Virus record (IMG/VR): IMGVR_UViG_3300042564_001440
Location: 1 to 30,935 of that record
Length of the DNA: 30,935 bases
Origin: a virus
Direction: 5' to 3' (one strand)
This document shows positions 6,907 to 30,732 of the stretch, piece by piece. Both the position numbers and the translations under genes were made by a program. A model generated the notes under the pieces. The model was given only the letters and a program-made list of their open reading frames with translations. It was not told the DNA's origin and searched no databases. Position 1 is the stretch's first letter. Every line of letters begins with the position of its first letter.

Positions 6907-9900
6907 TTAATATCCCTCTAAAGGTTCTCCGTTTTCGTCTGTTAATGCAATACTATTTTCTATGAGAACTTTTTCTCCACCATAGAAATATATGTCTGGT
7001 AATTCTGCTGGTCTTGAACGTAGGAAGTTTGCCTGCGTTCCAGTACTGAATAGCAACGAAGTTGAAGCAGAGTCTGTCCAGAATTCTGCTTCACGCTTAA
7101 CTACCGTTATCCTTGTTCCAGTTGTAATTTCTTCAGCAATATTTAACACTAATGTGCTAGTTCCTGTTATAGTAAACTCCGGCTGTAATATCTCATAACT
7201 CGACGTATTAACTCCGTCAACTTTTATAGACGATGAAGTGTAATAAGAACGGGACTTATCATGTACTATCATTGAAGACTTTCTTAACTGTCGGCCGCCA
7301 TAATAAACTTCAACTTGATCTACAGCATTAGCAAGTGTCGACAAAACAATGCCGTCCCCTGCATGAGTAGAAGTGTTAATCAAAAATGTAGATGTTCCAG
7401 TTGATGCACTAATAATATAAGTTGTAGTATTTGAGCTAGGAATATGTTGAATTAAACTATAATCCGTTGTAGGAATATTTTGGCGTATGCTTTGATCAAT
7501 AACTTCTGTACCAATGTCAGAGAATTTTGCAGGACCAGTTCCTAATGTTGATCTTCTTAGACCACTTAGTACATTACCATCCTTGGCAGTATATTCAATT
7601 CTTTCTCCATCAACATAGATTACTCCAGGTACATTTCTGTCAGGAATAGGCTGTAGCAAATGGTCGCCATTTGCTACAACAATTGTATTATCAGTGTATT
7701 GCAAAGGCTGTGCTAGACGAGTACTAAAATATTCTGATATACGTTTGTAATGATGTCTTCCAAACATATCTTTAAAGATTCTATGGCCCAATACTGAACT
7801 TCCATATGAAGGTGGATTGAATACCATAACAACTATATCATCTTCTGGAAAAATGTCTACAGATCCTGAAAATTCAATTGATCGGAAATCTTCCATTACT
7901 GAATAATCAAATCCAGCGATTAATGGAGTATCATTAACAGTGACCCATACATAATTTTCATTAAGTACTGGATAAGTTAATATTACAGGGTCGTTACCAT
8001 TAAATCGTTCAGTCCTGATCATCATGTTATCATGATCAGTAAAGGACGTTACCTTAATAGTAGCACTATTAACTGGTTGAGTTAGGCGTAAATTTCTACC
8101 AGATACAAAATAGTCATACGTGCCGCCAAGTAATGATTCAATTGCTATAGCATCACCTGTAACAATATTAGGATTAATTAAATTAATAGTTAACGCTAAT
8201 ACTGTAAAATCATATCCTGGTCTTAATTCAATTCCGTTAAGATAGACTTTAACATTGTCCAATGTATATAGGCCGCTGTTTTCAGGTTGCTTAATATTGA
8301 TTGGATATTCTGTTTGACCAGCTTGTACTTTATGATAACTAGCCCAAGGTGGTAGTAATCGGTCTCGGACCGTTGATGTTATTTTTTCAACAATTACTTG
8401 TTCACTTACTGGTTCAATTGTTCCAGGTGCTCTATCAAGAGTTAGATTAGAAGTCGCAGTTGAACCTATGGTATAATACTGTTCATGGAATGTATTAAAT
8501 TTAGGGAAAGGATAATCAAAGAACCACGCTTCTAAATTATATATATTACTGCTTAATCCGTTAACAGTGACCATAGCTCTATTACTATTAGAAGCGGCCG
8601 GAGACAATACATAACCGTAAACTGCTAGATTACTAGGATTTCCAGATGGTGGAACTTCTTCACCGTTTAGCAATACATACACACTTCTTACATCATCAAA
8701 TCCTAGCAAACTAGTAACTGCAACGGTGCCTGTATTTCCAACGGTTGATGGAAGTTCAACTCCTATATATTCACTGTCTACAGTAACGTCGGCTCCTACA
8801 GTAACAAAAGAATATCCTACAATAGTATAAACTAGTTGAATAGGAACAATTATAGTATTATTAAAAATACAGTACTGGGTAGAACTAGTAAATGAAGCCT
8901 CGTTGTTAACCCTGTCAAATACTTTGCCGTTGGCTTGTACTCTAAATCCCAGCGGAGCATCAGGCAACCACGATAATGTAGCTCTAGTTATACCATCAGT
9001 TCCAGCTGCAAATGCACCTGAAACTACCATAGGATAAGATGATGATTCTGCCACTGTGAATACATTAATGCCTATAGAATCTGTAACATACCCTGGAACA
9101 CATTCTTCAGGTGCATAACTATCAACAGCATTTAAAAAGTTGTTTCCATCTATGATAATATCTTCTGGTTTGTATCCAAGAGAAGTGTCACTGATTGTAC
9201 TTCCGTTTATTACACTGTCTAAATTATTATAGTCATTGTTGGTAGAATAGAACTCTAATTCAGTTGCACCAAATAGACTAACATTCATAGTTCCTGAAAT
9301 AGTTGCAGTCGAAGTTGAATATATAGAAACTACTGCTCTATCAAGTCCATCAATAGAATTAGAAATTCTATACCAAATAGTAGTTGTACTTTCTGGTAAT
9401 ACGTCAACAAATGTTGTTGTGCTAACTTCTTTAAATTTTACTTCTGCTCTAGTAACATCAGTGAACGGTGCAAATGTTTGCATTGACAATATTGTTGCCG
9501 ATGACATTGATTCAGTTGCTCGGTACAATAATTTATTAGAAGCTTCTAGATCATTCAGTAGACTTAAAAGTCTAAAACTAGCTCCAGGATTTAATGTAGT
9601 TGATGTGCTACCTAATTCCCATCGGTCAGATCTAATTTCAATATAGTTGTCAGTACATTTCTTTACTTCGGCATTTAAATTAAATCCTGGATCAAGGAAA
9701 ACAGTATATGAATCTGTAGTTACTGGACTAACCGTTCCACTAAATGTTAGTATAGGTGGTACAGAATAACCTATACCAGGCCATCCTGCAAGTACTGAGA
9801 TGTTAGTTACCGTGAGTCCAACTTGAGTTATCTGAACTTTAGCCTGACGGCCATTTGGTAAGTCAGGAGGAGAAACTACAGCAGTGACTAAAGATGTAGT

Positions 9901-12900
9901 TGATGTAGATAAAATTGGCGTTGTTGTGGTATTAATGTAATCAATTCCGTAACCACCAGTACTGTTAACTCCGTTGATTAATATAAAATCACCTGGTTTT
10001 ACCGACGTATTGAAAGACTCTCTAGTATTAATAACAATTGTCGAAAGTGTTGCGGTGGTACCTGTAGAGTATATATGTTTTATTTGTGTGTCTATTTCAT
10101 CAAGAGTACCAATGAATATTCTAGAACCTAAAACTTCAGTTACTACCGTGGTAGATCTAAATATCTGAGTAGATGTATTCAACGGCGCTATAGTTTGTCC
10201 CGGATAAATTCCATCTGATGAATCTGTGTCAATCCATAGACTGTCTTTCTTTAAATCTCCTGTAAGTTTAGCTACTGCATAGCTACTTACAGTGTCTCCC
10301 CAAGGTGCTGAGTCATAACGTGTACCTGTGTTATCCCAGTTAGGAGTTTGGTCAAACATTAACCCTTGTATAGATATACCAGGATACTCCGCGCCTTCCA
10401 TTAGCAACGGTAATTCTTTTCCTGGCATTAGATCAGTAGGATTGTATAGGTTGATAATCCTATCTACAGCATTGTATAAATCAATATTTTTGTTATAGGT
10501 AACTTTAAACACTTGGCCATATGCTGGAACTTTATTTAAAAATACAAATTTACTGTAATGTTTAATGTACTTAGGTACATCTCCTGATCTATCAGTGTTT
10601 AAGAAATATCTATAACGGTGATCCGTCATCTTTTCGCCTGTCCAAGAATTTTCAGGGAACGTTCTTGATACATCTATTCCAACATTTTCTTCTGCAATCT
10701 GATAATATTCTATAGTGTAATCGGTACCAAATACTAATTTACCATCTAACAACGGAGTTATATTTTGTTTATCTGGACTTGCAAGCCAAGATAATGTAAA
10801 TTTATCTAAGGTGCCGTCACAGATAAATGTATCAGTGACTGTTAAATTAGTCAGGTCTCCAACTGTAGAAGTTCTATCAAATTTTAATCCAATTATATTT
10901 TTTCTAACGGCGTCATTGGCCATGATGACCGACACCCTAGCAGTATCATTAGTAGTACTATTTGAGATAGTTACTATTGGAGGGATTACATAACCAGATC
11001 CAGAATTGGTTACAATTACTTTATACAGCTCACCGTTTCTAATGTATGCTTCAGCTGTTGCACCCGAACCAGTATCTCCAGTAGATGTAGTAATAGTTAC
11101 TGTAGGTCTTTGTGTATATCCTGAACCTGCGTACCCCACTTCAATTGCACTTACATAAAACTTATAATTGTCTTTCCAAGATTTATAAGGATATGAATCT
11201 ACTAAAGAGTTATCTAAATCAATTACATCAAGAGAATCTGTAGTTGTATTATAATAAGAAGGCAAATCAAAGTCAGTAGTATATAAATCAGCTTGTTCTG
11301 CTTTGTCATAAACTGAAGTATAATTTCTTATTTTTGTATGATACGGCTTGACTTCATTAATATAATTTTCAAAGTATTCTTCGTTGTTTAATTTATAAAC
11401 AGGTCGTTGATCAAGTGTTCCAATATTATTAAACACATTAATAAAGGAAGTTTTGAATGCCCAGTCAAGTAATTTTTGTTCAGTTAACGTATACTTAACT
11501 GCGGCAAAGAAGAACAAATTCCAATTTACTTTTAATGAATTAATAAAAATATTATTCTTTAATGCAATAAGAATGTAGTACAATTCTTGATCAGGAATTT
11601 GATCATACAAGGTTTCTTCAATAGTTGCACTATCGTAAGCATACTTGCCTATGTTATAATCCCATAAGGTATCTAATAATTGAATAGTTCCTTGTTCTCT
11701 ATAAACAATGTTATAGGAAGGAATGTAATTTCCTCCGCCAGATACTTTCTGAAGAATAGCATATTTGCTATCTCCAATATTTTTAACTTTTACATAGTCT
11801 CCATCAACAACAGATGTTAATGACCCTATTGCAAACAAATCTGAAATTGTGTACTGTATAGTTTTATAAGAATCATAAGTAGCACTAGACCAATCGACTG
11901 TGGTCCAGAATAACGGAGTATTATATTGTTGTGTTTGAACTTTAACCCAAGTTCTTAAAGAATAATCAAAACTATGTTTAGTCCATCTGTTTCCACTATC
12001 ACTGTTAACCTGTACTATTATAGAATGAGAACGGATTTTAACATTTACCAGGCCGTCCGCATATCCATTGCCTGGATTAATAATTGTTGTAGAAATCACT
12101 CGGCCGTCAACATCTAATTCAGTTACAATTTCACCAATTGCCGAACCAGTTGACAATATAGTAACTTTAGGTGCAATGGTATAACCAAAGCCTGGATTAG
12201 TAATAACAACACTTCTTATTTTTCCATTCTCTGCTCGACATTCTAATTCTGCTTTAACAAAATTAATTGTAGACACTTCATCGAGAGACGCAAGGTCTTC
12301 AACTACTGCATCGTATTCATAAGAAAATAATGCAGGTATTTCTTCTACTTTGTTTAGGTTTTCAAAAGAATAATTTCCTACAATTCTATTTTCTTTAAAG
12401 ACAGAATTTACAAATGTAATTAAATTACGTAATGCTGCTAATCGATCTTTGAACAATGTTTGTTGAGGACGAATTCCAATACCATATCTGTTTCTATAGG
12501 TAAGATTTTTTGCAGGCACTACATTTCTGTCTACTGTAGAGTCATGTCCTAATAAACTATCAAAAAGTTTTTTCTCTAACAACGTATTAGGAACACTGGT
12601 ATGATCACCTTCGTTTAACAACAACCATTCAGTGTGTTTAGGAGTAGAAATACTGTAGTCAATAGTAATATTAGCATTGATCCTATTTCCAACTAACATT
12701 GGTTGGACGTTAGCAAATGCTACAGAACTCGGTGATAATATTTCAACAAATTTCAAACCGTTAGCAACTGGGTCTGCAATATAACTTGCAACTTGAAACC
12801 CGCTCAATCTTCTGTTCTCGGCTTTAGGCAAAGTAACTTTATTCTTAACCCAGAAGTAATAAACATTTTCAAACGATCCTGTTACATTATTAAATAATTG

Positions 12901-15900
12901 CTTAACAGAAATAACGCTGTTGTCTGGATACTTAGGTTGTCCACTAATGCTGTTAACTAGTCCTTTAGTAGTATCGGCTTGGGCGGCCCACTCGGCGGGT
13001 AATAGGTCGGATTTGACCCACTCGTATACGTCAATACTGGCACCTGGGAACATTCTACCCCAGTTATTTTTTCTAAATATTTCATCGCCTTGCTCATACC
13101 ACATGAACTTTGCAGTACTTAAATCCCACCATAGTTCACCTACGTGTTCATCTAACCAATTTGTTTCAGTATTAACAATAGTTCCCGCAAGTCCAATAGA
13201 ATATGTAGCTGGGTCAAACGCAGCTTTGAATTTTAATTCTTGTTCGGCAATTCCAGCAATCTTTCCTTTAACTGGATCAATTACATCTAGATAGTCAACT
13301 ACCTCTTCTTTTACTGTATCAATTAAGGCAACACGACCTATCGGTAATACATCGACTGTATTTTCTTGTTCTCTCAAAACTTTCCAACTTTGAGAAGTTA
13401 GATCTGTTTTACTGAATATATATAATTCAGAAGTATCAGTTGTTGATGCTGAATACGGTTGACTAGTAGGAGCCCCAACAAATACTTCGTTGTTAGTTAC
13501 AACCGTGGCGGCGCCATATCTACTACCGGACAATATATTAACATCATTTAATTCGTCTGCTTGTATAAACTTATTACCTACTTTATTATACAGATAAACT
13601 GTGCCAGCATCTGGAATTATTTCGTTAAACTTAGTAGAGCCGCCGTCAAAAGTTGTTTGGCCTGCGCTGCTAGATTCATCAAATAGTTGTTCACGGCTTC
13701 TAGTTTTTCCTAGAGCACCAATACTAATAGTTTGTTCGTCTTTACTAATAGAAATAGAATAACCAAACTTCAAATCATTAGTAGGTAAAGGATTGTCAAT
13801 AATTTGATTTAAAACATATATCCCTGATGTGTTTGTAAAGATTGCAACTTTACCATACGGCTCATTTGTATACTTGATCTCAGGAGCGGAAATTAACAGA
13901 TACTTACCACTATCTGAAACTGCAATGTCATGCCCAAATCTACCACCTTCAGCAAACTCTGCTAAGAACGGATAATTAACAGGCTGAGAATACGACAAAT
14001 CGGTGTTAAACAAATGAACAGTGCCAGAAGAGGCAACGTACCCAGGGGCACTAATTGCAAATCCAATTGAACACTCGGCAATCTTATAACCCCATTGACT
14101 GCCAGCGGATAGTGTAATAGACGAAGTTGTTAACTCAATTCCACGAACATGTGATATTACTGTAGAAGATGTTGTAATACTATAAGCATATACTGATCCA
14201 GTGCCTGCAAATGTAGTAGACCCAGGAGCACCTACTAATAATGTTGTGGAACTAGTGGATGGTACTCGATTAATACAAATAGAATGTCCAAATCTAGAAT
14301 TGTCAGCAGGACGTGGATTTGCTATAACAATTTCAGTAAAGATAGGATAATCTTCTTGTCGACTATCAATTTTAACTAACCCTTCCTTGACATAAGGTCT
14401 AGCATATCCAGAGCCAGTACTTAATACATTAGTACCAGTAACAATTGCGGCTCTAACATAAGTAGCCTCAGGAGCACCTGTGACATATAATTTCTTTCCT
14501 ATATCATATTGTAAAGCATAACCAAACTGTGTAGAACTTGTAGCACTACAGTAAGTTTTTAAGTTACTATTTAAAATATAATCATATTTGCGAGTCCATA
14601 CACTGTTTACTTTATTGAAAACTTTAACACGACCTTGACTGTACGCCCCATCAATTCTCCAGCTAGGAGCAGATACTAGCATTACAGAACTGTCATTTGA
14701 TGCAAAAATTGAAGTTCCGAACCTCTGACCTGCAGGAGTATCAGCAGTGTCAATTGTTGTTACAGAATAGTTTTTAACTTTTTCATAGACCTGCCATTTA
14801 CCGTCAGTGCCGCTGTCTATCCAAACTTTGTCGCCAGCATTTAATTTTAAAAGATCTGTGACTTGAGATAACTCATCTAAATTACTATATCTTGCTTCTT
14901 CAAATTTATATAAGGATCCGTAATTTAATAATGCTTCATTTTCAATGCTAGACAATCCAGTAGAAACTGTGAATTGATTTGTGTTTACAATAGAATTAAC
15001 AATGTAAACTCCGTTAACTTGAGCATTAAATCTTACTACAGAAATAACATCACCTGTCTGAAGTCTGTGATGACTGTCTGTTACGAAAGTAATTTCACTG
15101 CCAGGAGCACTAACAAATACTCCAGATATTTCAGCTAACTGTTTAGCATATCTGTAAACAGTCCAATCTCCATTTTCTTGAAATCCTAGCCAAACTGTGT
15201 CACCGTCTTGTATTGCAGAATTGTTAGCAATGTCCAATAAACTGTTTTTGTTGTAAGCCGTAGATGTAACGTCATCTGGTCTTACATAACCAGCTGTGGT
15301 TAGTTTTAAATTATTATCTTCCCAGGTACCAGCATAGGAACTTATTGTATTTGCAGGGTCATAACCATCTGGTGTTAATAACAATGTTGATGAAGTTATA
15401 TAATTAATTAAAGGATTAGCGTCAGCAGGCAATGTATTAACAAATTTAACTAGATAGGGATTTTCTAAATAGGTGCCTTCTTCTAACTGAAATTCAATTT
15501 CATTTAATGATGAGTAACTTCCATAATGTCCTGTTCTAAAGGCCCACTCTTCTTTAAATGAGAGGTCTCCTTTATTTGTAAATTCGCTGGCCTTGGCCAA
15601 TTTGTCAACTGCATTCTTAGTGCCTTTGTCTTTGATCATGCCTTGATAGAATTTATATTGACTAATTGGATTAGTGAATATATTATTTAGATACGTCCTA
15701 GGAGTATATCCAGTAAGGTGTTGCGCTAATTGCTGTTGACTGTAATCAAAGTTATCAATGTCAAGACTATAAAAATCTTCAAATTGATTAATTTTATAAT
15801 CAAAATTAGGTAGTAATTGAGGAACTGGCTTTTTACTTAATTGTTCCCATTTGGTAAAATCAAATATAGAATCAGAAGTAATTTTTACCAATGACTCGTA

Positions 15901-18900
15901 ATATCTACCATTGTATCTTACAACCTTACCTGGCAGATATGTTTTGTATGCCTGCCAGTCATTGATTTCAACATTGTCATAGACAAAGCCGGGACTGAAT
16001 AAGTCGCCGTTCCAATTCTTCGTTCTAAATCCAGAAAGTTTAATTCTTAGTTGTCTGTACCCTGTTTCAATATCATAGATAATATCGTTGAATACTGTAA
16101 AATTATTAAACACCATAGCGTGTTCTTTTTGCACAGAATTTAATGCAGCAAAGAATAATCCTTCATTAGCATCTCTGGTCTTAATTGTACATATAGTATC
16201 TTCTCTAGCCATGGTAAATTTATCAATAGGATAAGGTTTACCGTCTGCTTTTAATAAACTGTATTCATATTTTCCTGTAGAAATATTATCAACAACAGAA
16301 TTAGGGAAATTATATTTGATGTAATTGGCAAAAGGACTTAAAGTAATTAAGTTGCCATCTGCCCAATTCTGCGTAGTCCAGTACAAAAATTCTTTGCCAG
16401 TAAACTTCCAATTTAACATTTCGTTTAAATCAGAGTTGAATTCATCAAAGATAAATCCCTGTGTTTCGAGATATGCACCATAACCTATGATAACATCATA
16501 TACTGCTTGAATTGTTGTAAATTCTGTGCCGTAAGGAATTTGTGTTACAGTAGATTCAAATTTTGAAGAAGCCTGGACGGCAGCACCGCCTTTAATTGGC
16601 AACTCTGGAAGACCTTGAAATAATGCAGGATCAAATGTAGCTCCTGCATTATGCCCTATTTTAACTCTATAGAACTTGTTATTATATCTTACAAGCTGTC
16701 CTTGTTTGTAATATCGACCGGTAGTAGATTCTACCGATGTATTATCAACTGAACTTACGCCTTTGTTTCCGTTATTAACAACATTTGACCAATCTGAGAA
16801 ATCTTCAGATATACCTCCAACCTTAACAGCACCCGAAGAAAAAGAAGAAATAGGTTGTAGTATTTCAAAATATGGATTTGCTATATCGTAGCCCTTGACT
16901 ATAAAATTACCATTAGATCGTTGGACAATGATTCCAGAAATTCTAGCAGTCTTGATAGGATTGCTGACATTTAAGATCAAAGAATAATCTTCAGATGGTA
17001 GTACAACTCCAGGGCTTGTTGAAGTAGGATCAATGGAGTCAATAATAATTTGTAGCTTGTCTTTACTAACAAACCCGCCAACCTTATGGAAAAGATTAAC
17101 ATTGAGATATTCAAGATCCTGTCTTAATTTTACAATATAATTTTGATCTTTCTGTCTACCTCTTTCAATAATGTAAGATCCAAAGCCTGCAATTTGATTA
17201 TTTGACTCGCCTTCAATAATTAATTTTCTAGGATCTAAATATGAATCATCTTCAGTATAGGTTACTTGTCCAACAGGATTGATAGTAGTTCTACTAACAT
17301 CAAATAAAGACGAACACACTGTACACGGATTTAATAAGGCGGCTGCGGCAAGTAACGAGAATCTGGAATGACTACTTCGTCTCCAAACAAACTCTGCAGG
17401 GCCACGATCGCCAAACTTCCAATATGATTTTTTATCTTGGTATGAATTTGCAGTAACTAAAAAGGTATTAGGAGTTTTTAAATTTCCATCTACGTCAACT
17501 GGGATGATTGATAATAAATCAGGTCTTGCATAGTCAGGTAGATATACATTTTCGCCCCTCAGGTATCCATTTTTCAAATCAGTCCAAAGTTTTGTATTGG
17601 TTGATTTGTAAGGGGCGATGCCGTATTCACTGACCCACCAAGCAGGAGCTTCGGTTAACCCTAACATTTTCCAAGGAATAAGGTTAGGCTGGATAGTATC
17701 GTAAAAATACGTGAAAAGAGTTTTCCAGTGTCCTGAAATTTCATTTTTATCTACAACATCAAGGCTACCTGTGTAATTCCAAGTACGAGGGTTTGTTTCA
17801 TCAAAGGTATTATTAGTAGTAGCATCAACTCCGTAGGTACCTGCCCAACGAGAAAAATCATTTATTAATATACTGTCTACATCAGCAACCGTATAATTCT
17901 TTTTTCTAAAGGCTCCTGGAATTACTGCGTTAATATCAAATATGCTACTGTTATATTGAACCTTAATATTATTAAAAATTCTTAATTCAAATTCTAAAAT
18001 AATATCATCTCTGTAATCATCATAGGCGTTTATTAAACTACCATCGTGTCCTTGAATTACATTTACCTGGCCTGTGGCCAATGTAGTATCAGGAAGTATC
18101 TGAGGAATAGAAGATGGGTACAATCCTAACTTTGATGGAGTAGGAGGAATATAACACCCTAACGTATCAATGTAATAATTAATTGTTATTATATCACCAA
18201 CTGATATAGGAGTTGATAGTATTACAGATCCGTCAATGTAATCAAAAGTATATTGAGAACCATGTATTAAATGTGTTCCATTAATATAAACAATTACGGA
18301 TTGAAAACTTAATCTAGTTAAATCAAATTCAAAACCAATTGGATATTCTACGTTGGCAACGTCAGTAACTGTAAATGTTCTTACTGTTTTGTTTTGCCCG
18401 TAGCCTAACATATCAGAACGCTGATATAAAGATTTAAGATCTTTATCTTTATTAAGAGTTGCTAATATTAAATCAAGTGCATCCGCTGCAGATAGCTGAC
18501 TGTCAACATTTTGTATAGCTTTTAAAAAATTCATCTTAAACTGGTCATAATGTTGCCCAGCTTGTCTAATAGAGTCGACTACGTTGTGTTCTTTCTTACC
18601 AAGAAAAATTTGAGAAAATGTAATTGGACTAGCATTGACTACTAATCTTGAACCATATTTGGCATAGTCAGTTAAGTCTCTTAAATTATTTCCAGTGTAT
18701 GCCGATGTTTTAGCAAGCATCGAATATACATGATCGCCTAACTCACTCAAGGTTAAACTTGAAGCAAATCCATTCAACGGATTATTTGTTAAACTGATAG
18801 GAGTTTCATAGTACCCATTGCCATTAGGAATTTGATCAGTTTCTATTTTTAATAAAACTACCTCGTCTTTTAACAATATACTTTCTGTAGTTAATGTAAT

Positions 18901-20598
18901 CTTCCCGGTAGTAGCAGTTGTGCTTACTGGTATTTTTTTATTATTAACATACGCAGATACGGTCAATTCAGTATTAATAGGCGAATCAAAACAGGTTACA
19001 TTGATAGTATTAGTATTCTCAGATAGGGTTTGAATTTCTAAAACAGGAATTTTATAATCAACAGATTGCGCCCAAACATTAGTTAATACATCATTTAATT
19101 TTAGATAAGTGATTGCTGTTGAAATTGTTCTACTTACATTATTGTTAGTCAATATAATAGTGTCTGTCATAAAATAATTTTTAAACAGATAACTACCAGC
19201 ACCTATATTATTTTGATACTTTAAAGAGAATCCTAAAACTGGATCAACATTACCGGTGCCAACTTCATAACCAAAAATTTGATTTCCTACAAAGTTATTA
19301 GCTTCATCAACCTCAGTATAACTAATTCCAGTGCTAGTAAACAAATCAAATAATGGTGGTTGATTTACAGTTTCGTGTTGCTGGGCATAAATCCATTTAC
19401 TCAATGATGCATTAAAATACCAACTTGTTCCGTAGTATTCTGTACCAAAATTTACACTTACAGAATCCATATCTGTGGGTGTTAAATCTTCGGCTCCTAT
19501 GAGGCGTAGTACAGGGACTTCGCCTGATATATCAAAATTAACTTGAAATATTTTACCTCTTACTGCTAAATCATCATCATTATTAAAAACAACTCGATGG
19601 CCTTGCTGTAATAAAATACCATCAACATAATAACCGTAAGTACCGTCAACTGTACCAAATGCGTCTGTAGTAGAGTCGTCAATTACATCAACGTTTCGAA
19701 TTCCAGATTTTCCAAAATTATAAAGTTTTAAATCTGCTTTAAACTCAATAACAGGACGGTTGGCTCTAGAAGATAACGGATATATTACCGGAATATTATT
19801 AATCTCAGATGTTACTCTGATAATTTCTTTGTGGAACCATCTATTATAACGTGTCCAAGGATTTAAATCTGAACTAGCTCTATTAATTGTAATGTAATCA
19901 GGAGTTAGCGGTAATTTTTTATCACCATCAAACGGATAATCATCAAATTGAACATTGTCAAATGTTTCGTCAAATACGGTAGCAGTTTTATCATAAGAAT
20001 CTAATACATTGTATTCTATTAGTTTAATAGATAATCCCACTCCTTCAACTAGATAAACAATTCCTTCAACTGAAATTTTCATACCGTTGCTTAATAGGTA
20101 ACCATTTTCCATTTCATAAGAAACTTCACCTACAATATCAGCTAATGTTTCCGTGGCCGCTAATGTAATTAAGTTTGGGCCGGTAGGCAACCAATAGTAA
20201 TCTGTAAAGTTGATTAGCTTATCCCAATCAATTAATGGATCATAAGAATAAAATTCTGATCTAAATAACTTGTCAAGATTAGAATTTTTGCCGCCTTGTA
20301 TTCCTATTTCGTTGATCAGGTCATCATAAGACACTACGTCTGTGACGTTATTATTAGAATCTCTAAATACTAACGCAGGTTCTAAATTGTAACTGTTCCT
20401 TAATGAAGATTTTTCATCAAGATAAAAGTCTGTACTAGGATTATAGTTAGGAGTAATCTTGGATCCAACAAATCCTTCCAATCTCTCAACTTGGGGAGTT
20501 TGAATAAATTGATCAATCGTGCTAGATAAAAATTTAGAATTCTTATCAGTTTGTAGATATTCTGGTAATAGGTTAACTGATTTTTTAATATCCGCCAT
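6907..20598 (-). CDS. Giant (4563 residues) multidomain baseplate/tail structural protein at the gp7 position
   Basis: This is one uninterrupted frame of 13,692 bases starting one base after the gp6-like stop, with GGAACC as ribosome binding site. By position it replaces T4 gp7 and possibly further wedge or short-fibre proteins; I see no sequence proof of gp7 homology. Recognisable parts: an N-terminal region with WDKLINFTDYYWLPTGPN; two CBM5/12-like segments (about 1292-1326 and 1545-1571); seven FG-GAP blades starting at about residues 1959, 2024, 2102, 2168, 2220, 2277 and 2360; a fibre-type GELWWDLSTAKFMWYEQG module at about 2485-2502; GxGY beta repeats at about 2793-2850, 3151-3210 and 3597-3620; INEVKPYHTKIRNY near 3080-3093; and near the C-terminus VDGERIEYTAKDG with LSGLRRSTLGTG (about 4323-4355). 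There is no signal peptide and no clear membrane segment. Its likely role is the baseplate periphery and host contact. Confidence 0.75.
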   Translation of the reverse strand: MADIKKSVNLLPEYLQTDKNSKFLSSTIDQFIQTPQVERLEGFVGSKITPNYNPSTDFYLDEKSSLRNSYNLEPALVFRDSNNNVTDVVSYDDLINEIGIQGGKNSNLDKLFRSEFYSYDPLIDWDKLINFTDYYWLPTGPNLITLAATETLADIVGEVSYEMENGYLLSNGMKISVEGIVYLVEGVGLSIKLIEYNVLDSYDKTATVFDETFDNVQFDDYPFDGDKKLPLTPDYITINRASSDLNPWTRYNRWFHKEIIRVTSEINNIPVIYPLSSRANRPVIEFKADLKLYNFGKSGIRNVDVIDDSTTDAFGTVDGTYGYYVDGILLQQGHRVVFNNDDDLAVRGKIFQVNFDISGEVPVLRLIGAEDLTPTDMDSVSVNFGTEYYGTSWYFNASLSKWIYAQQHETVNQPPLFDLFTSTGISYTEVDEANNFVGNQIFGYEVGTGNVDPVLGFSLKYQNNIGAGSYLFKNYFMTDTIILTNNNVSRTISTAITYLKLNDVLTNVWAQSVDYKIPVLEIQTLSENTNTINVTCFDSPINTELTVSAYVNNKKIPVSTTATTGKITLTTESILLKDEVVLLKIETDQIPNGNGYYETPISLTNNPLNGFASSLTLSELGDHVYSMLAKTSAYTGNNLRDLTDYAKYGSRLVVNASPITFSQIFLGKKEHNVVDSIRQAGQHYDQFKMNFLKAIQNVDSQLSAADALDLILATLNKDKDLKSLYQRSDMLGYGQNKTVRTFTVTDVANVEYPIGFEFDLTRLSFQSVIVYINGTHLIHGSQYTFDYIDGSVILSTPISVGDIITINYYIDTLGCYIPPTPSKLGLYPSSIPQILPDTTLATGQVNVIQGHDGSLINAYDDYRDDIILEFELRIFNNIKVQYNSSIFDINAVIPGAFRKKNYTVADVDSILINDFSRWAGTYGVDATTNNTFDETNPRTWNYTGSLDVVDKNEISGHWKTLFTYFYDTIQPNLIPWKMLGLTEAPAWWVSEYGIAPYKSTNTKLWTDLKNGYLRGENVYLPDYARPDLLSIIPVDVDGNLKTPNTFLVTANSYQDKKSYWKFGDRGPAEFVWRRSSHSRFSLLAAAALLNPCTVCSSLFDVSRTTINPVGQVTYTEDDSYLDPRKLIIEGESNNQIAGFGSYIIERGRQKDQNYIVKLRQDLEYLNVNLFHKVGGFVSKDKLQIIIDSIDPTSTSPGVVLPSEDYSLILNVSNPIKTARISGIIVQRSNGNFIVKGYDIANPYFEILQPISSFSSGAVKVGGISEDFSDWSNVVNNGNKGVSSVDNTSVESTTGRYYKQGQLVRYNNKFYRVKIGHNAGATFDPALFQGLPELPIKGGAAVQASSKFESTVTQIPYGTEFTTIQAVYDVIIGYGAYLETQGFIFDEFNSDLNEMLNWKFTGKEFLYWTTQNWADGNLITLSPFANYIKYNFPNSVVDNISTGKYEYSLLKADGKPYPIDKFTMAREDTICTIKTRDANEGLFFAALNSVQKEHAMVFNNFTVFNDIIYDIETGYRQLRIKLSGFRTKNWNGDLFSPGFVYDNVEINDWQAYKTYLPGKVVRYNGRYYESLVKITSDSIFDFTKWEQLSKKPVPQLLPNFDYKINQFEDFYSLDIDNFDYSQQQLAQHLTGYTPRTYLNNIFTNPISQYKFYQGMIKDKGTKNAVDKLAKASEFTNKGDLSFKEEWAFRTGHYGSYSSLNEIEFQLEEGTYLENPYLVKFVNTLPADANPLINYITSSTLLLTPDGYDPANTISSYAGTWEDNNLKLTTAGYVRPDDVTSTAYNKNSLLDIANNSAIQDGDTVWLGFQENGDWTVYRYAKQLAEISGVFVSAPGSEITFVTDSHHRLQTGDVISVVRFNAQVNGVYIVNSIVNTNQFTVSTGLSSIENEALLNYGSLYKFEEARYSNLDELSQVTDLLKLNAGDKVWIDSGTDGKWQVYEKVKNYSVTTIDTADTPAGQRFGTSIFASNDSSVMLVSAPSWRIDGAYSQGRVKVFNKVNSVWTRKYDYILNSNLKTYCSATSSTQFGYALQYDIGKKLYVTGAPEATYVRAAIVTGTNVLSTGSGYARPYVKEGLVKIDSRQEDYPIFTEIVIANPRPADNSRFGHSICINRVPSTSSTTLLVGAPGSTTFAGTGSVYAYSITTSSTVISHVRGIELTTSSITLSAGSQWGYKIAECSIGFAISAPGYVASSGTVHLFNTDLSYSQPVNYPFLAEFAEGGRFGHDIAVSDSGKYLLISAPEIKYTNEPYGKVAIFTNTSGIYVLNQIIDNPLPTNDLKFGYSISISKDEQTISIGALGKTRSREQLFDESSSAGQTTFDGGSTKFNEIIPDAGTVYLYNKVGNKFIQADELNDVNILSGSRYGAATVVTNNEVFVGAPTSQPYSASTTDTSELYIFSKTDLTSQSWKVLREQENTVDVLPIGRVALIDTVKEEVVDYLDVIDPVKGKIAGIAEQELKFKAAFDPATYSIGLAGTIVNTETNWLDEHVGELWWDLSTAKFMWYEQGDEIFRKNNWGRMFPGASIDVYEWVKSDLLPAEWAAQADTTKGLVNSISGQPKYPDNSVISVKQLFNNVTGSFENVYYFWVKNKVTLPKAENRRLSGFQVASYIADPVANGLKFVEILSPSSVAFANVQPMLVGNRINANITIDYSISTPKHTEWLLLNEGDHTSVPNTLLEKKLFDSLLGHDSTVDRNVVPAKNLTYRNRYGIGIRPQQTLFKDRLAALRNLITFVNSVFKENRIVGNYSFENLNKVEEIPALFSYEYDAVVEDLASLDEVSTINFVKAELECRAENGKIRSVVITNPGFGYTIAPKVTILSTGSAIGEIVTELDVDGRVISTTIINPGNGYADGLVNVKIRSHSIIVQVNSDSGNRWTKHSFDYSLRTWVKVQTQQYNTPLFWTTVDWSSATYDSYKTIQYTISDLFAIGSLTSVVDGDYVKVKNIGDSKYAILQKVSGGGNYIPSYNIVYREQGTIQLLDTLWDYNIGKYAYDSATIEETLYDQIPDQELYYILIALKNNIFINSLKVNWNLFFFAAVKYTLTEQKLLDWAFKTSFINVFNNIGTLDQRPVYKLNNEEYFENYINEVKPYHTKIRNYTSVYDKAEQADLYTTDFDLPSYYNTTTDSLDVIDLDNSLVDSYPYKSWKDNYKFYVSAIEVGYAGSGYTQRPTVTITTSTGDTGSGATAEAYIRNGELYKVIVTNSGSGYVIPPIVTISNSTTNDTARVSVIMANDAVRKNIIGLKFDRTSTVGDLTNLTVTDTFICDGTLDKFTLSWLASPDKQNITPLLDGKLVFGTDYTIEYYQIAEENVGIDVSRTFPENSWTGEKMTDHRYRYFLNTDRSGDVPKYIKHYSKFVFLNKVPAYGQVFKVTYNKNIDLYNAVDRIINLYNPTDLMPGKELPLLMEGAEYPGISIQGLMFDQTPNWDNTGTRYDSAPWGDTVSSYAVAKLTGDLKKDSLWIDTDSSDGIYPGQTIAPLNTSTQIFRSTTVVTEVLGSRIFIGTLDEIDTQIKHIYSTGTTATLSTIVINTRESFNTSVKPGDFILINGVNSTGGYGIDYINTTTTPILSTSTTSLVTAVVSPPDLPNGRQAKVQITQVGLTVTNISVLAGWPGIGYSVPPILTFSGTVSPVTTDSYTVFLDPGFNLNAEVKKCTDNYIEIRSDRWELGSTSTTLNPGASFRLLSLLNDLEASNKLLYRATESMSSATILSMQTFAPFTDVTRAEVKFKEVSTTTFVDVLPESTTTIWYRISNSIDGLDRAVVSIYSTSTATISGTMNVSLFGATELEFYSTNNDYNNLDSVINGSTISDTSLGYKPEDIIIDGNNFLNAVDSYAPEECVPGYVTDSIGINVFTVAESSSYPMVVSGAFAAGTDGITRATLSWLPDAPLGFRVQANGKVFDRVNNEASFTSSTQYCIFNNTIIVPIQLVYTIVGYSFVTVGADVTVDSEYIGVELPSTVGNTGTVAVTSLLGFDDVRSVYVLLNGEEVPPSGNPSNLAVYGYVLSPAASNSNRAMVTVNGLSSNIYNLEAWFFDYPFPKFNTFHEQYYTIGSTATSNLTLDRAPGTIEPVSEQVIVEKITSTVRDRLLPPWASYHKVQAGQTEYPINIKQPENSGLYTLDNVKVYLNGIELRPGYDFTVLALTINLINPNIVTGDAIAIESLLGGTYDYFVSGRNLRLTQPVNSATIKVTSFTDHDNMMIRTERFNGNDPVILTYPVLNENYVWVTVNDTPLIAGFDYSVMEDFRSIEFSGSVDIFPEDDIVVMVFNPPSYGSSVLGHRIFKDMFGRHHYKRISEYFSTRLAQPLQYTDNTIVVANGDHLLQPIPDRNVPGVIYVDGERIEYTAKDGNVLSGLRRSTLGTGPAKFSDIGTEVIDQSIRQNIPTTDYSLIQHIPSSNTTTYIISASTGTSTFLINTSTHAGDGIVLSTLANAVDQVEVYYGGRQLRKSSMIVHDKSRSYYTSSSIKVDGVNTSSYEILQPEFTITGTSTLVLNIAEEITTGTRITVVKREAEFWTDSASTSLLFSTGTQANFLRSRPAELPDIYFYGGEKVLIENSIALTDENGEPLEGY
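13390..14770 (-). repeat. Seven FG-GAP blades inside the giant protein
   Basis: Within the 4563-residue protein, seven units of about 52-83 residues share the pattern (R/K/Q)(F/Y/W)G..., then a strand ending in SAP, GAP or GAL, and a third strand of the type GxVxxFN. Visible examples are RFGTSIFA/LVSAPS/GRVKVFNK, SRFGHSIC/LLVGAPG/GSVYAYS, GRFGHDIA/LLISAPE/GKVAIFTN and SRYGAATV/VFVGAPT/ELYIFSK. This matches the FG-GAP repeat of integrin-alpha-type beta-propellers, and seven is the normal blade number. Asp/Asn/Ser-rich loops such as SNDSS, SDSGKY and SKDEQ lie where calcium loops occur in some families, but no full canonical calcium motif is evident. Confidence 0.8.
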
Positions 20599-20599
20599 G

Positions 20600-23500
20600 T
20601 TAGGTTCCGCTAGTTGTTACAATTGCCGAAGTCGATTTTAATTGTGATGCTGTAATGGCATCAATTATTTCTATGTCCGAAATTCCTGCACCATTTATAA
20701 AAAGTTCATTTGATTGACAGGCCACTTCGTATAAACTGCCAAAGCTGCCAACACTCTTAGGTGTAACAACAAAGTTAGTTATGTCAGGTGTTAGTTGGTT
20801 CATTACGTAAGTCGACAATTCACTAAAATAGAATGATTGTCCAAAATCCCAATTCTCTAAAGCAAAGAATTCATTGATTGCTGTTAGTATTCTAGTTTTT
20901 AAATCGTTGTCTGTTGTAGGTCTTTCAGAATTTCTTACTGCTTTAAATTTAGCTTGTAAACTAGTAGTAGCATTGCTGCCAAATAATATTTTATATTTTA
21001 CAGAATGAAAAATAATCTCATCGCTGATAGCTTTGATTGGTTCTAAACTAGCAGAATAGTTTTGTTCTAGACTATAGCTTGTAGGAGGAAGTGGTTCACT
21101 GACTGTATTACCTGCTAGCCAACTTCTTACACTGTTGTCGTATCCAGTTGTTAATACATAGATATCAATAATGTTTGATTTACTAGGATCAATTCGTCTA
21201 TCATTTCCACTATTATGAACATAATGAAAGTTAAGGCCAGAGCGGCCAGGGCGAGCAAAATATTGATCTGTGTATACTAATTTATTATCGGCTACAGACC
21301 AATATTTGATAACATTTATTGCTGGGCTGTAAAAATAAAATAAATCGCCATCAGCTACAGAATATGCCGGATTACCTTTGTAAGAATAAAAATCAATTTC
21401 AGTTTCAAAAGGAATAATTCCCGTTGTTAATTCATATCGGGCACCATTACTTAATTTTTTAAAATAAACAAAATTAGTTTTATGATCTATTGAAGTATTA
21501 GCAATTCGTTCTACATAGTCGGGTTCTACAATTGTTTTAAATGACTCTGGATCCTGAATTTGTCCTGTATTATTATAATCGTAAAAACTTACTTTTATTT
21601 TTTTTGGTTCTATGTACCCATCACTTTCTACTACAGGGCCATCAATTTGCCAGGCATAATCTGATGATAACTTTCCGGTAAAATTATTTCCCGCATACCA
21701 TTTTCCAGTAATTTTTCTAGAAATTTTATTTGTAATGGTATTTAGATAATAGTCTCCGTTATTTCCTAAAGAATTAGATACGTTATCAGTGGTGCCGTTG
21801 TACCATTGCCTGTCAGACGATGGTAAAGAATTAACTGATAACACATCAATTCTGTCTTTAACTACAGTATTAGTAATAAAATCATAGTTAACAGAATCAA
21901 TATCTACATAAAATGCAGTTTCTGCTTCGCTTTCGAATATAAAATATAAATTTCTATATCGAACTTTATAATTTTTTCCAGTCCATACAAATGCTATAAT
22001 CCAACTAGAGTCTATTCCTGCATCCTCTACATTGCCTTGATTATCTAAACTAAAAGAATCTAACAAATTTAAATTAGAATTTAAAATTATATCCCAAGTT
22101 CTTGAATCATTTGAAATTGTTAATCCAAAATTTCGTTGACTCATGCACAAATTAGCAATTTCGTTTTCAATGGAAAAGTTTAAAGTTTGTACGTATTTAG
22201 GAATTACTTCAATTGGCACTGCTCCCTGAGGAACACGACTAGAAAATATTACAGGACCAGTTCCGTCGTCAAGTGATCCTGCGCCACTGTTGCTGCCATC
22301 ACCAATTACCTGATAAACCATGGACCACATATAATCTCTGCCGCCTGCAGGAATAAGTCCCGCGTTGGCGCCAGTTGTAGTAACTGCGACTAGATTATTG
22401 TCAGCATCAAAATATTTTCCAATAGGCGGACTAAATTTAACCAAAGCACCCTGGTTTGCATATTTTAAATTATTTTCTGAATACTCCCCCATTGATACCG
22501 GACCTGTGATATTAGAAAAATATCCTCGGCTTTGCCCCGGAGTTTTGTTAACTTCATTCCAGGTCAACAATAACAATGATAAATCAAGGTTATTATATTT
22601 GTTAATATAAAATGAACGACTTCCAGTTGATAACACCACCGGAGCTAGAGAATTTTTAATAACAGAAAGCACTTGGTTTCTACTAGTAAATTCAAATTCA
22701 AAATATTCTTCAGATTCTTCTTGATATAAAATACCGTCTGCGGCAAAAATGTTAGTTTTACTGTATCCACCAGTTACATCGGATATATCAAAATACTTAC
22801 TCAAACCACTGCTAACACGGTTAACACTTTTAACTTTTAATATATCAGAGCCTGCACTCAACGGAGCAATATTATAATCTTCTCCAGTGATCATTCTATT
22901 TTGTAGGTAATAATTTTGAGGAGCTTTAGTTTGAATACTGGCATTGCTTTCTGCACCTGAACTGTTACTAACAGTGTATTGAAGACTCAATGTCATTTGT
23001 AAGGTGTGTGTTTGTCCAACTCCGTTAACATAAGGAACTTGAATAACAATACCACTCATTTGCTCAGGTTTAATAACATAAGACTGTCCATTGCTCTGTC
23101 TGTAGAATAGTCTAAAGTCACCTTTGGGCAAATCACCAAACACGCCGTCAGCAAAGTTTAAATCAATTTGATCATTTTCTCTAGGAGCGATTGCATAGAT
23201 AGTTCTTAAATTTTTATTAAGACTATTATAAATTACGTTATTGCTATTGTTGATAGTAGGAACATCTGTCCATAAAGTTAAAAAGTTTCCATTCTTATCT
23301 AATTGCCATAACCATACATCTGTATCATTAATGTCAGGTGTGTTAATGCCCACAATCTCATTAGGTACAGGATTGTCTAAAGAGAACTGGACCATACTTA
23401 ATGATCCTTGTTTGAACATTGTAAAGAATCCTGTGTCAGCACTACCAGATCCTTGATTGTCGTTTTTATAAATGAAACTAAATTGATTTGCAGGTTCAGG

Positions 23501-24178
23501 AGCCGCTTCATACACATAAGTTCTATCAATAAATGTACAAGGAGCCACCTCAAATCCCATTGACACTCCGTCAATGTTTTTGTTGAAACTAAACAACGGA
23601 ACATCAGTGTTAGCACCGTTGAAATAATATTGTTCTGTTAGGATACCACTTAATGTTACTCTGTCTGCGGGATTTCCAAAATTAGAACTCATTGCAGAAT
23701 TCATAATATTGATAAACTGTTGATACCAATTAGAATTAGTTGAGTCATTCCACCCAATAGTAGTGTTAGCAAGGTTGTTGCCGTTAGAATCAATTACGCT
23801 GTCTGTTGTAGAGATAGCTGTAACTTTTAAAAACCCGTTTGCAGGTGTATTGCGTTTAGGACGATAGCTAATTAGTTGTGCTAACCGTAGGATACTATCA
23901 CGTCGTTGTGCTGTTTCTAAGAAGTTTTCGCGGGCATTTAAATCAATACGGAATGATAAATTTTGACCCAAGTAAGCAATAAGATCAATAAGGGCTATAT
24001 ACTCACTACTATCAATGAAATCGTTAAAATCTTCTGGATAATTTTCCTGAAGATAGGAAATCATTGTACGTCTTAGTGTTTCAAAATCGTAGCTTTTGAA
24101 GTCAGCATTGCGAAAAGATTGATAAATCTTTTTCCAATCTTCGCCGACGAGTAGTTGAGTGTTAGTTGAAGGGATCAT
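20600..24178 (-). CDS. 6: Baseplate wedge protein, gp6-like (P2 gpJ-related), enlarged
   Basis: The 1192-residue protein begins with the conserved gp6 region: LLVGEDWKKIYQSF (9-22), DFETLRRTMISYLQENYPED (31-50), SEYIALIDLIAYLGQNLSF (58-76), ENFLETAQRRDSILRLAQL (84-102). The C-terminal region, about 1090-1185, has the typical pattern INEFFALENWDFGQSFYFSE followed by a TPDITNFVVTP segment. In T4, gp6 dimers form the inner ring that holds the wedges together and drive the baseplate change before contraction. T4 gp6 has about 660 residues, so this protein carries several hundred extra residues, mostly between about 470 and 1050. The extra part includes a fibre-like LGNNGDYYLNT motif with a following GKWY. 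A gap of 46 bases precedes the gene and holds a late-promoter-like element. Confidence 0.9.
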   Translation of the reverse strand: MIPSTNTQLLVGEDWKKIYQSFRNADFKSYDFETLRRTMISYLQENYPEDFNDFIDSSEYIALIDLIAYLGQNLSFRIDLNARENFLETAQRRDSILRLAQLISYRPKRNTPANGFLKVTAISTTDSVIDSNGNNLANTTIGWNDSTNSNWYQQFINIMNSAMSSNFGNPADRVTLSGILTEQYYFNGANTDVPLFSFNKNIDGVSMGFEVAPCTFIDRTYVYEAAPEPANQFSFIYKNDNQGSGSADTGFFTMFKQGSLSMVQFSLDNPVPNEIVGINTPDINDTDVWLWQLDKNGNFLTLWTDVPTINNSNNVIYNSLNKNLRTIYAIAPRENDQIDLNFADGVFGDLPKGDFRLFYRQSNGQSYVIKPEQMSGIVIQVPYVNGVGQTHTLQMTLSLQYTVSNSSGAESNASIQTKAPQNYYLQNRMITGEDYNIAPLSAGSDILKVKSVNRVSSGLSKYFDISDVTGGYSKTNIFAADGILYQEESEEYFEFEFTSRNQVLSVIKNSLAPVVLSTGSRSFYINKYNNLDLSLLLLTWNEVNKTPGQSRGYFSNITGPVSMGEYSENNLKYANQGALVKFSPPIGKYFDADNNLVAVTTTGANAGLIPAGGRDYMWSMVYQVIGDGSNSGAGSLDDGTGPVIFSSRVPQGAVPIEVIPKYVQTLNFSIENEIANLCMSQRNFGLTISNDSRTWDIILNSNLNLLDSFSLDNQGNVEDAGIDSSWIIAFVWTGKNYKVRYRNLYFIFESEAETAFYVDIDSVNYDFITNTVVKDRIDVLSVNSLPSSDRQWYNGTTDNVSNSLGNNGDYYLNTITNKISRKITGKWYAGNNFTGKLSSDYAWQIDGPVVESDGYIEPKKIKVSFYDYNNTGQIQDPESFKTIVEPDYVERIANTSIDHKTNFVYFKKLSNGARYELTTGIIPFETEIDFYSYKGNPAYSVADGDLFYFYSPAINVIKYWSVADNKLVYTDQYFARPGRSGLNFHYVHNSGNDRRIDPSKSNIIDIYVLTTGYDNSVRSWLAGNTVSEPLPPTSYSLEQNYSASLEPIKAISDEIIFHSVKYKILFGSNATTSLQAKFKAVRNSERPTTDNDLKTRILTAINEFFALENWDFGQSFYFSELSTYVMNQLTPDITNFVVTPKSVGSFGSLYEVACQSNELFINGAGISDIEIIDAITASQLKSTSAIVTTSGT

Positions 24179-24224: not shown

Positions 24225-24662
24225 TTATTGCAGGACCAGTCCAATGTTCTGATCGAACAACAATTTCAATGACGATGATTGATCCGTATTTTTCATTACT
24301 AAAACAATATCAATCAAATAGCCTTGTTCGTATTCGTTAACTTGTATTTGTGTAGGATATACTCTCGAATCAGCAGTACAGATTGTTTCAATATCTTTAG
24401 TCAATACATTTCTAATATTAGGAGTCAGTGGTTCCATTAATGTATCCCAGATGATGGTTCCAAAAGTGGGATTCATTACTCGCTGACCTTTTCTTGTGTT
24501 AAAATGATTAAGAATATTCTGTTTAATTAATTCAAAGTCGTAGAGTTTAGATCCTCTATTATCTGGATTAGTGGTGCTAAATCCTTTATAATAATGAGTC
24601 AGCTTGTTAGAGTGTTGACTATTATAGTTTGTAGGAGTAATTTCTAAATTCTTGTAAGGCAT
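24225..24662 (-). CDS. 25: Baseplate wedge protein, gp25-like (GPW/gp25 family)
   Basis: The 145-residue protein matches the gp25/P2 gpW family in size and motif: GQRVMNPTFGTIIWDTLMEP at residues 59-78, the family's characteristic segment in which the Trp-Asp and the Glu-Pro are conserved. Family members sit at the inner baseplate wedge, link the wedge to the hub, and are thought to nucleate sheath assembly. It lies between the spike gene and the gp6-like gene, as W lies between V and J in P2. A likely Shine-Dalgarno sequence (AAAAGGAT) covers the end of the preceding gene and lies 18 bases before the ATG. Confidence 0.92.
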   Translation of the reverse strand: MPYKNLEITPTNYNSQHSNKLTHYYKGFSTTNPDNRGSKLYDFELIKQNILNHFNTRKGQRVMNPTFGTIIWDTLMEPLTPNIRNVLTKDIETICTADSRVYPTQIQVNEYEQGYLIDIVLVMKNTDQSSSLKLLFDQNIGLVLQ

Positions 24663-30435: not shown

Positions 30436-30732
30436 TTAACCTAAAACTCCTTTTAAGGTAGATGCTTTGGGCAAATAAATTTTAACGCCAGCTACCATAT
30501 CAAACACCGGATCTTTGATAACTGATCTATTTCTAACGGCAAATACCCACCATAGACTTTGATCTTTGTACAAGTCATAGGCCAACAAATCAGGACGATG
30601 TTCGTAGGTGGCGGTTAATTCAAAAAGGATATCATCTCTTTCTTTGGGTATGTCTCTAAAATTAATAACATCAAGATAGTTATTAACCATCGATGTATTA
30701 TAATAAGGACTTGTTTTAGTGTAGGTAGTCAT
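30436..30732 (-). CDS. 53: Baseplate wedge protein, gp53-like
   Basis: This 98-residue protein carries the signature of the gp53-type wedge family: EHRPDLLAYDLY followed by SLWWVFAVRN (residues 44-68), then IKDPVFDMVAGVKIYLP (72-88). In T4, gp53 is one of the last proteins added to the baseplate wedge and helps join wedges around the hub. The protein is about half the length of T4 gp53, so it represents the conserved core. Its start overlaps the upstream stop by one base and its TAA is one base before the next ATG. The sequence encoding its C-terminus contains AAGGAG, a likely ribosome binding site for the next gene. Confidence 0.8.
   Translation of the reverse strand: MTTYTKTSPYYNTSMVNNYLDVINFRDIPKERDDILFELTATYEHRPDLLAYDLYKDQSLWWVFAVRNRSVIKDPVFDMVAGVKIYLPKASTLKGVLG

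Follow-up and report, generated by a model that had tools for sequence, protein, structure and literature searches.

The window, by which we mean the whole stretch of DNA analysed, is a single virus record of 30,935 bases. PHROG matches on its minus strand reveal gp53-, gp5-lysozyme-, gp25- and gp6-like genes followed by a giant open reading frame of 4563 amino acid residues. This is the baseplate operon of a jumbo myophage of the RaK2/PA5oct type, and it contains the following genes:

30436..30732, minus strand: gp53-like baseplate wedge gene (PHROG 7145, E 6e-23)
24681..26960, minus strand: gp5-like baseplate hub with a lysozyme part (PHROG 13211, E 8e-52; PHROG 181, endolysin, E 2e-34)
24225..24662, minus strand: gp25-like baseplate wedge gene (PHROG 43, E 1e-15)
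20600..24178, minus strand: gp6-like baseplate wedge gene, directly upstream of the giant gene (PHROG 10646, “baseplate wedge subunit,” E 1e-279)
6907..20598, minus strand: giant structural protein carrying the propeller (ORF of 4563 residues; PHROG 10938, “virion structural protein,” E 8e-293)

Residues 1-1540 of the giant protein match 59 phage records, every one at less than 60% identity. The closest named relatives over this portion are the PA5oct-type Pseudomonas phages, Phosso, Atu_ph07 and SCTP-2, with the RaK2 and PBECO4 types ranking lower, and in the seven cultured relatives that we read the giant gene comes after a gp6-like or equivalent large gene. PA5oct gp355, a relative of the giant protein, bears an ESI-MS/MS mark in its record. 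For CBB_236, the neighbour of the wedge protein CBB_237, a published study gives 21 peptides in mass spectrometry and 7.7% coverage (PMC5259590); this position and the low coverage suggest that CBB_236 is the corresponding giant protein. The mass spectrometry of these relatives supports a location of the giant protein in the virion, which, together with its location inside the baseplate operon, bears out the view of an earlier note, made from the sequence alone, that the propeller is embedded in a phage tail protein.

The giant gene lies directly after the gp6-like gene, and the order is the same for gp7 in T4. Homology of the scaffold, i.e., the chain flanking the propeller, to T4 gp7 or gp8 was rejected: hhalign of the N- and C-terminal scaffold profiles returned probabilities of 0.2 and 0.1 against gp7 and no match against gp8, a comparison of these profiles with the PDB found no match, and the model of residues 2405-3160 (pLDDT 73.3, pTM 0.56) had a best known-fold match of Z 4.4. 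With no profile match to gp7 and no known protein well matched by the model, the equivalence is an argument from gene order only, by which the giant protein probably stands in place of gp7 beside gp6 in the tail wedge.

In mid-chain, the 4563-residue protein contains seven consecutive FG-type motifs starting at residues 1959, 2024, 2102, 2168, 2220, 2277 and 2360, the same seven units that the earlier note had read between residues 1959 and about 2403. Six of the seven satisfy a strict FG...GAP regular expression, which in 2000 shuffles of the protein occurred 0.0045 times on average and once at most. The note had named three FG-GAP families for a search: PF14312 (FG-GAP_2) matches marginally, its 23.7 bits (E 5.4e-5) reaching the curated cut-off of 23 although none of the individual stretches does so by itself, whereas PF01839 and PF13517 gave no match at E<=1 in the Pfam search of the window. 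FG-GAP_2 is thus the only propeller family reported there by Pfam. T4 is without a PF14312 match, which agrees with the note's statement that the propeller is not part of the standard T4 baseplate. Searched against the PDB as a lone sequence, the region matches integrin alpha-4 at E 0.014 only; as a profile of 29 sequences it matches integrin alpha-4 at E 5.1e-6 and alpha-M at E 8.3e-5.

An AlphaFold model of residues 1850-2470, built on the 29-sequence alignment, has a pLDDT of 77.5 and a pTM of 0.78; most propeller blocks lie at 75-96, while both ends and some loops are low. The best 50 Foldseek matches listed are all integrin chains, with moderate TM-scores (mostly 0.42-0.49 by query length, at most 0.67 by short targets). 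The best VIA-align match is the head of integrin alpha-M (Z 36.8, rmsd 3.1 A, 357 residues, model residues 93-557), and against 1tye_A, a propeller-only chain of 452 residues, Z is 34.9 over 378 residues spanning 1-452 of that chain. The integrin matches begin at model residues 92-94, at a strand about 15 residues ahead of the first FG motif, the position at which integrins have their closing strand. As modelled, residues ~1942-2406 close into a propeller of seven blades, of the integrin alpha/FG-GAP class. The prediction of such a closed fold was therefore sound, and its borders of 13390-14770 are refined to 13381-14775, with the following parts:

13381..14775, minus strand: complete predicted seven-bladed propeller domain, residues ~1942-2406 (AlphaFold model; VIA-align Z 36.8)
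14749..14769, minus strand: N-terminal strand, residues 1944-1950, probable closing (“velcro”) strand of blade 7 (DSSP strand 95-101; role by comparison with integrins)
14578..14724, minus strand: blade 1, residues 1959-2007 (motif, model strands)
14320..14529, minus strand: blade 2, residues 2024-2093, with a long 2-3 loop (motif, model strands)
14152..14295, minus strand: blade 3, residues 2102-2149, with the best FG-GAP_2 stretch, 2114-2139 (Pfam, motif, strands)
13975..14097, minus strand: blade 4, residues 2168-2208 (motif, model strands)
13795..13941, minus strand: blade 5, residues 2220-2268 (motif, model strands)
13552..13770, minus strand: blade 6, residues 2277-2349, with a long conserved 2-3 loop carrying a TTFDG motif (motif, strands)
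13408..13521, minus strand: blade 7, residues 2360-2397 (motif, model strands)

Some phage propeller proteins are depolymerases, and one slot among the relatives (L086) gave a weak, sub-cut-off match to the Pfam endosialidase barrel. A catalytic propeller, such as a glycan-degrading sialidase or other depolymerase, is nonetheless very improbable here, given that the 50 best structural matches listed are chains of integrins, which are not enzymes, and that FG-GAP_2 alone represents the Pfam propeller families in the window.

Upstream of the propeller in the chain are two further features:

15874..15957, minus strand: CBM_5_12 module, residues 1548-1575 (Pfam PF02839, E 3.8e-10, 40.1 bits against a cut-off of 26.2)
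14776..14838, minus strand: W-rich segment, residues 1921-1941, abutting the start of the propeller, with a weak likeness to chitin-binding modules in profile comparison (2rts, E 0.005)

The first of these is well above its cut-off and lies about 370 residues ahead of the propeller; in relatives, CBM_5_12 matches to the W-rich segment are mostly under the cut-off.

The integrin alpha heads (9t3y, 5e6r, 1tye) belong to the same seven-bladed class, with whole-domain matches at Z of about 35-37 and both FG and GAP motifs, but identity is about 18%, and the phage propeller lies mid-chain in a phage protein and is without the motif DxDxDG. In the integrin alpha propeller, DxDxDG loops bind calcium. 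There are none in residues 1942-2406 of the window, and among relatives the motif occurs in 26 of 127 slots, never more than once per slot; integrin-like, metal-dependent binding is therefore not indicated, and the likeness to the integrin head is at most one of shape.

Among phages, one paper places the seven-bladed propeller gp131C (PDB 4GBF) at the rim of the baseplate in the jumbo myophage phiKZ, where a role in receptor binding has been suggested but not confirmed, and describes Gp45 of Staphylococcus phage phi11 as a receptor-binding baseplate protein whose propeller module is tied to a sugar receptor (PMC4901313). The former differs in being the C-terminal domain of another protein and is absent from the sequence matches of our propeller profile, whereas the latter has five blades and is a dedicated homotrimeric receptor-binding protein. 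The viral library reveals FG-GAP-type propellers also in an uncultured Caudovirales phage, cyanophage S-TIM5 and Atu_ph07, but these (UFOVP1367_22, the S-TIM5 virion protein and Atu_ph07 gp320) are listed as separate proteins, two of them beside tail genes. None of the papers listed in our search of the open-access literature deals with a phage baseplate protein that carries an FG-GAP propeller. Seven-bladed baseplate propellers of jumbo phages have a precedent in phiKZ gp131C, and one of integrin type inside this giant protein appears to be new.

Which relatives possess the propeller was examined by a search of viral contigs that was blind to it, using residues 1-1000. At least 588 relatives were found, and the best 80, i.e., the most similar, were used. 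A profile built from 191 blade cores was then run at a threshold of >=5 bits on 142 giant proteins, namely that of the window, those of 54 + 80 contig loci and those of seven cultured phages; at least five of the 80 loci lie on contigs that the first set, the source of the profile, already includes. It gave 578 matches in 129 of the 142, against two in the reversed-sequence control. The 13 proteins that lack a match are those of the seven cultured phages and six of 1344-1960 residues, which end before or near the slot.

The slot is bounded on both sides by alignable scaffold. Both borders are present in 70 of the best 80 of the at least 588 relatives. Every one of these 70 slots contains a blade; two or more occur in 68 of them and three or more in 56. 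In 127 proteins, 553 blade matches fall within slots and none elsewhere; matches per protein are few, and the blade number of seven is established for the window only. With an independent profile, FG-GAP_2, eight of ten slots sampled at even steps matched at E<=0.01, seven of them over the cut-off.

The cultured giants differ. RaK2, PBECO4, PA5oct, Atu_ph07, Phosso, SCTP-2 and Vibrio phage 2.275.O have the same scaffold flanking the slot, but none of these seven (examined out of 59 matching cultured records) has a blade match. In RaK2 and PBECO4 the scaffold is alignable on both sides of slots of only 138 and 137 amino acid residues, versus 620 and 619 in the window. The slots of the cultured phages range from 115 to 1529 residues and hold other inserts or none, and in five of them the contents matched no Pfam family above cut-off. 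The propeller alone, searched against 50,697 phage records, gave two weak matches, neither within a comparable giant gene. As judged from these alignments, the propeller is a clade-wide, self-contained, mid-chain cassette in a fixed slot.

Among the 70 environmental relatives the slot measures 520-1808 residues (median 709). In four close relatives (L002, L006, L009 and L015) an insert of about 120 residues separates blade 6 from blade 7 and gave no Pfam match and no convincing PDB match; further relatives have inserts of about 60-185 residues within blades 3 and 5. In L134 and L129 some 800-1000 extra residues come after strand 2 of the second blade and, as read from the sequence, appear to belong to a loop of the propeller. 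Large inserts occur on both loop sets, alignment-based placement of loops being uncertain. Of the 23 listed long gaps, 10 were scanned and matched only CBM_5_12, under its cut-off; to the eye some inserts resemble Ig-like or lectin-like domains, but we do not put this forward as an identification.

In pairs of close relatives the dN/dS of the propeller is 0.10-0.18 and that of its flanks 0.04-0.14, and in seven of seven pairs the propeller value lies above both flanks, by 1.1-2.9 times. The propeller is under purifying selection. Positive selection is not seen in the propeller values of 0.10-0.18, at a dS of 0.88-1.79 that is partly saturated.

A dN/dS so far under 1 speaks against a leftover or neutral expansion, that is, a dispensable and merely tolerated insertion without contact function. 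The same is true of the alignment of nine relatives, in which strand identity is 66.8% versus 59.0% in the top loops (2-3 and 4-1, named by integrin analogy) and 50.1% in the bottom loops, and of the blades found in all 70 slots from the best 80 of at least 588 relatives. Although the lack of the propeller in 7/7 cultured giants examined, the spread in slot length from 520 to 1808 residues and the few recognisable blades that remain in some members would fit such an expansion, we consider it improbable.

The earlier note had proposed, as a check, to compare related phages for faster variation in the loops of one face. The per-loop comparison of the two faces in seven close relatives is weak and not significant (p=0.18), and the small difference runs opposite to the face with which integrins bind; one-sided hypervariable loops as a clear sign of a binding face were accordingly rejected. 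The fastest change is found elsewhere in the chain:

9229..10248, minus strand: residues 3451-3790 of the giant protein, the fastest-changing stretch tested (identity profile against close relatives; dN/dS 0.12-0.34 in six pairs)

This stretch changes as fast as the propeller or faster in all six measurable pairs, is mostly absent from the close relative L006, and is the better candidate of the two for host specificity.

Propellers often serve as protein-docking discs. It is possible, and we advance it tentatively, that this one is a structural disc on which another virion protein (tail fibre, neighbouring wedge or downstream tail proteins) docks, with no host contact. Purifying selection, the non-significant loop faces, the faster-changing region elsewhere and the presence of the propeller in 70/70 environmental relatives with both borders (of the best 80 of at least 588) are all in keeping with this idea. 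However, RaK2, PBECO4 and five more cultured relatives manage without a propeller, its loops accept large inserts, which a tight docking disc would be expected to resist, and its rate of change exceeds that of either flank in each of the seven pairs.

Clade-wide presence, absence outside the clade, faster change than the flanks and tolerance of large inserts are best fitted by an exposed surface through which the tail makes contact, which the propeller probably is. A giant protein in the place of gp7 would hold the propeller outside the baseplate, where its loops, which accept further inserts, could form the contact surface, most likely for accessory adhesion to the host envelope or its glycans. 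Because the scaffold finds no place among known baseplate proteins by sequence or fold comparison, projection from the baseplate, as put forward in the earlier note, is something that we infer, as are the copy number and the contact with the host. Precedents are phiKZ gp131C, whose role is unconfirmed, and phi11 Gp45. We put at about even the chance that the cassette sits on the baseplate exterior and serves in accessory adhesion to host envelope or glycans. The free-standing FG-GAP proteins amid the tail genes of other phages support adhesion; counted against it are the propeller's low dN/dS (0.10-0.18), the faster residues 3451-3790, the p of 0.18 for the loop faces and the lack of DxDxDG.

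Alpha-I integrins tolerate inserted domains, as does the phage propeller. A bolder and rather unlikely reading is that a large and so far only environmental clade of jumbo phages has equipped the main giant protein of its baseplate operon with an adhesion head like that of integrins, the loops being a landing platform for domains of up to about 1000 residues, comparable with the integrin I-domain. If so, the tail of each lineage would have a surface contact peculiar to it, and the cultured relatives would fill the slot otherwise. Host contact by giant phages is poorly understood, and the giant proteins of their baseplate operons are almost without annotation; a fixed slot in a protein of more than 4000 residues offers a concrete site at which to test tail-host contact, and the propeller-filled slot a marker for recognising the clade in metagenomes.

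FG-GAP proteins were also noted in other phages. In Agrobacterium phage Atu_ph07 (NC_042013.1, 243018-244199; L158), the product annotated as “hemagglutinin protein,” gp320, has FG-GAP_2 matches and is encoded close to two genes with a tail sheath annotation. An unrelated small uncultured phage (LR797314.1; L144) encodes a 473-residue FG-GAP protein at 14482-15903, two genes past a large hypothetical gene that itself lies behind the tape measure gene. Sinorhizobium phage Phosso (PV764938.1), whose own slot is without a blade, has 55 FG-GAP_2 matches outside it, in proteins (L157, L159) that look like multi-propeller phage proteins:

48338-57826 and 57900-68978: adjacent hypothetical giants of 3182 and 3702 residues
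~92124-94532: smaller proteins of 429 and 398 residues

With regard to the host, a search of genome contigs with the propeller profile for host assignment found no relative. At 4414-6069 the window encodes a subtilase (Pfam S8) that among phages is matched best by cyanophages, with 44% identity over 99% to Synechococcus phage S-CREM1. All 39 matching phage records are named as Synechococcus, Prochlorococcus or Marine phages, which hints at a cyanobacterial host or at gene exchange.
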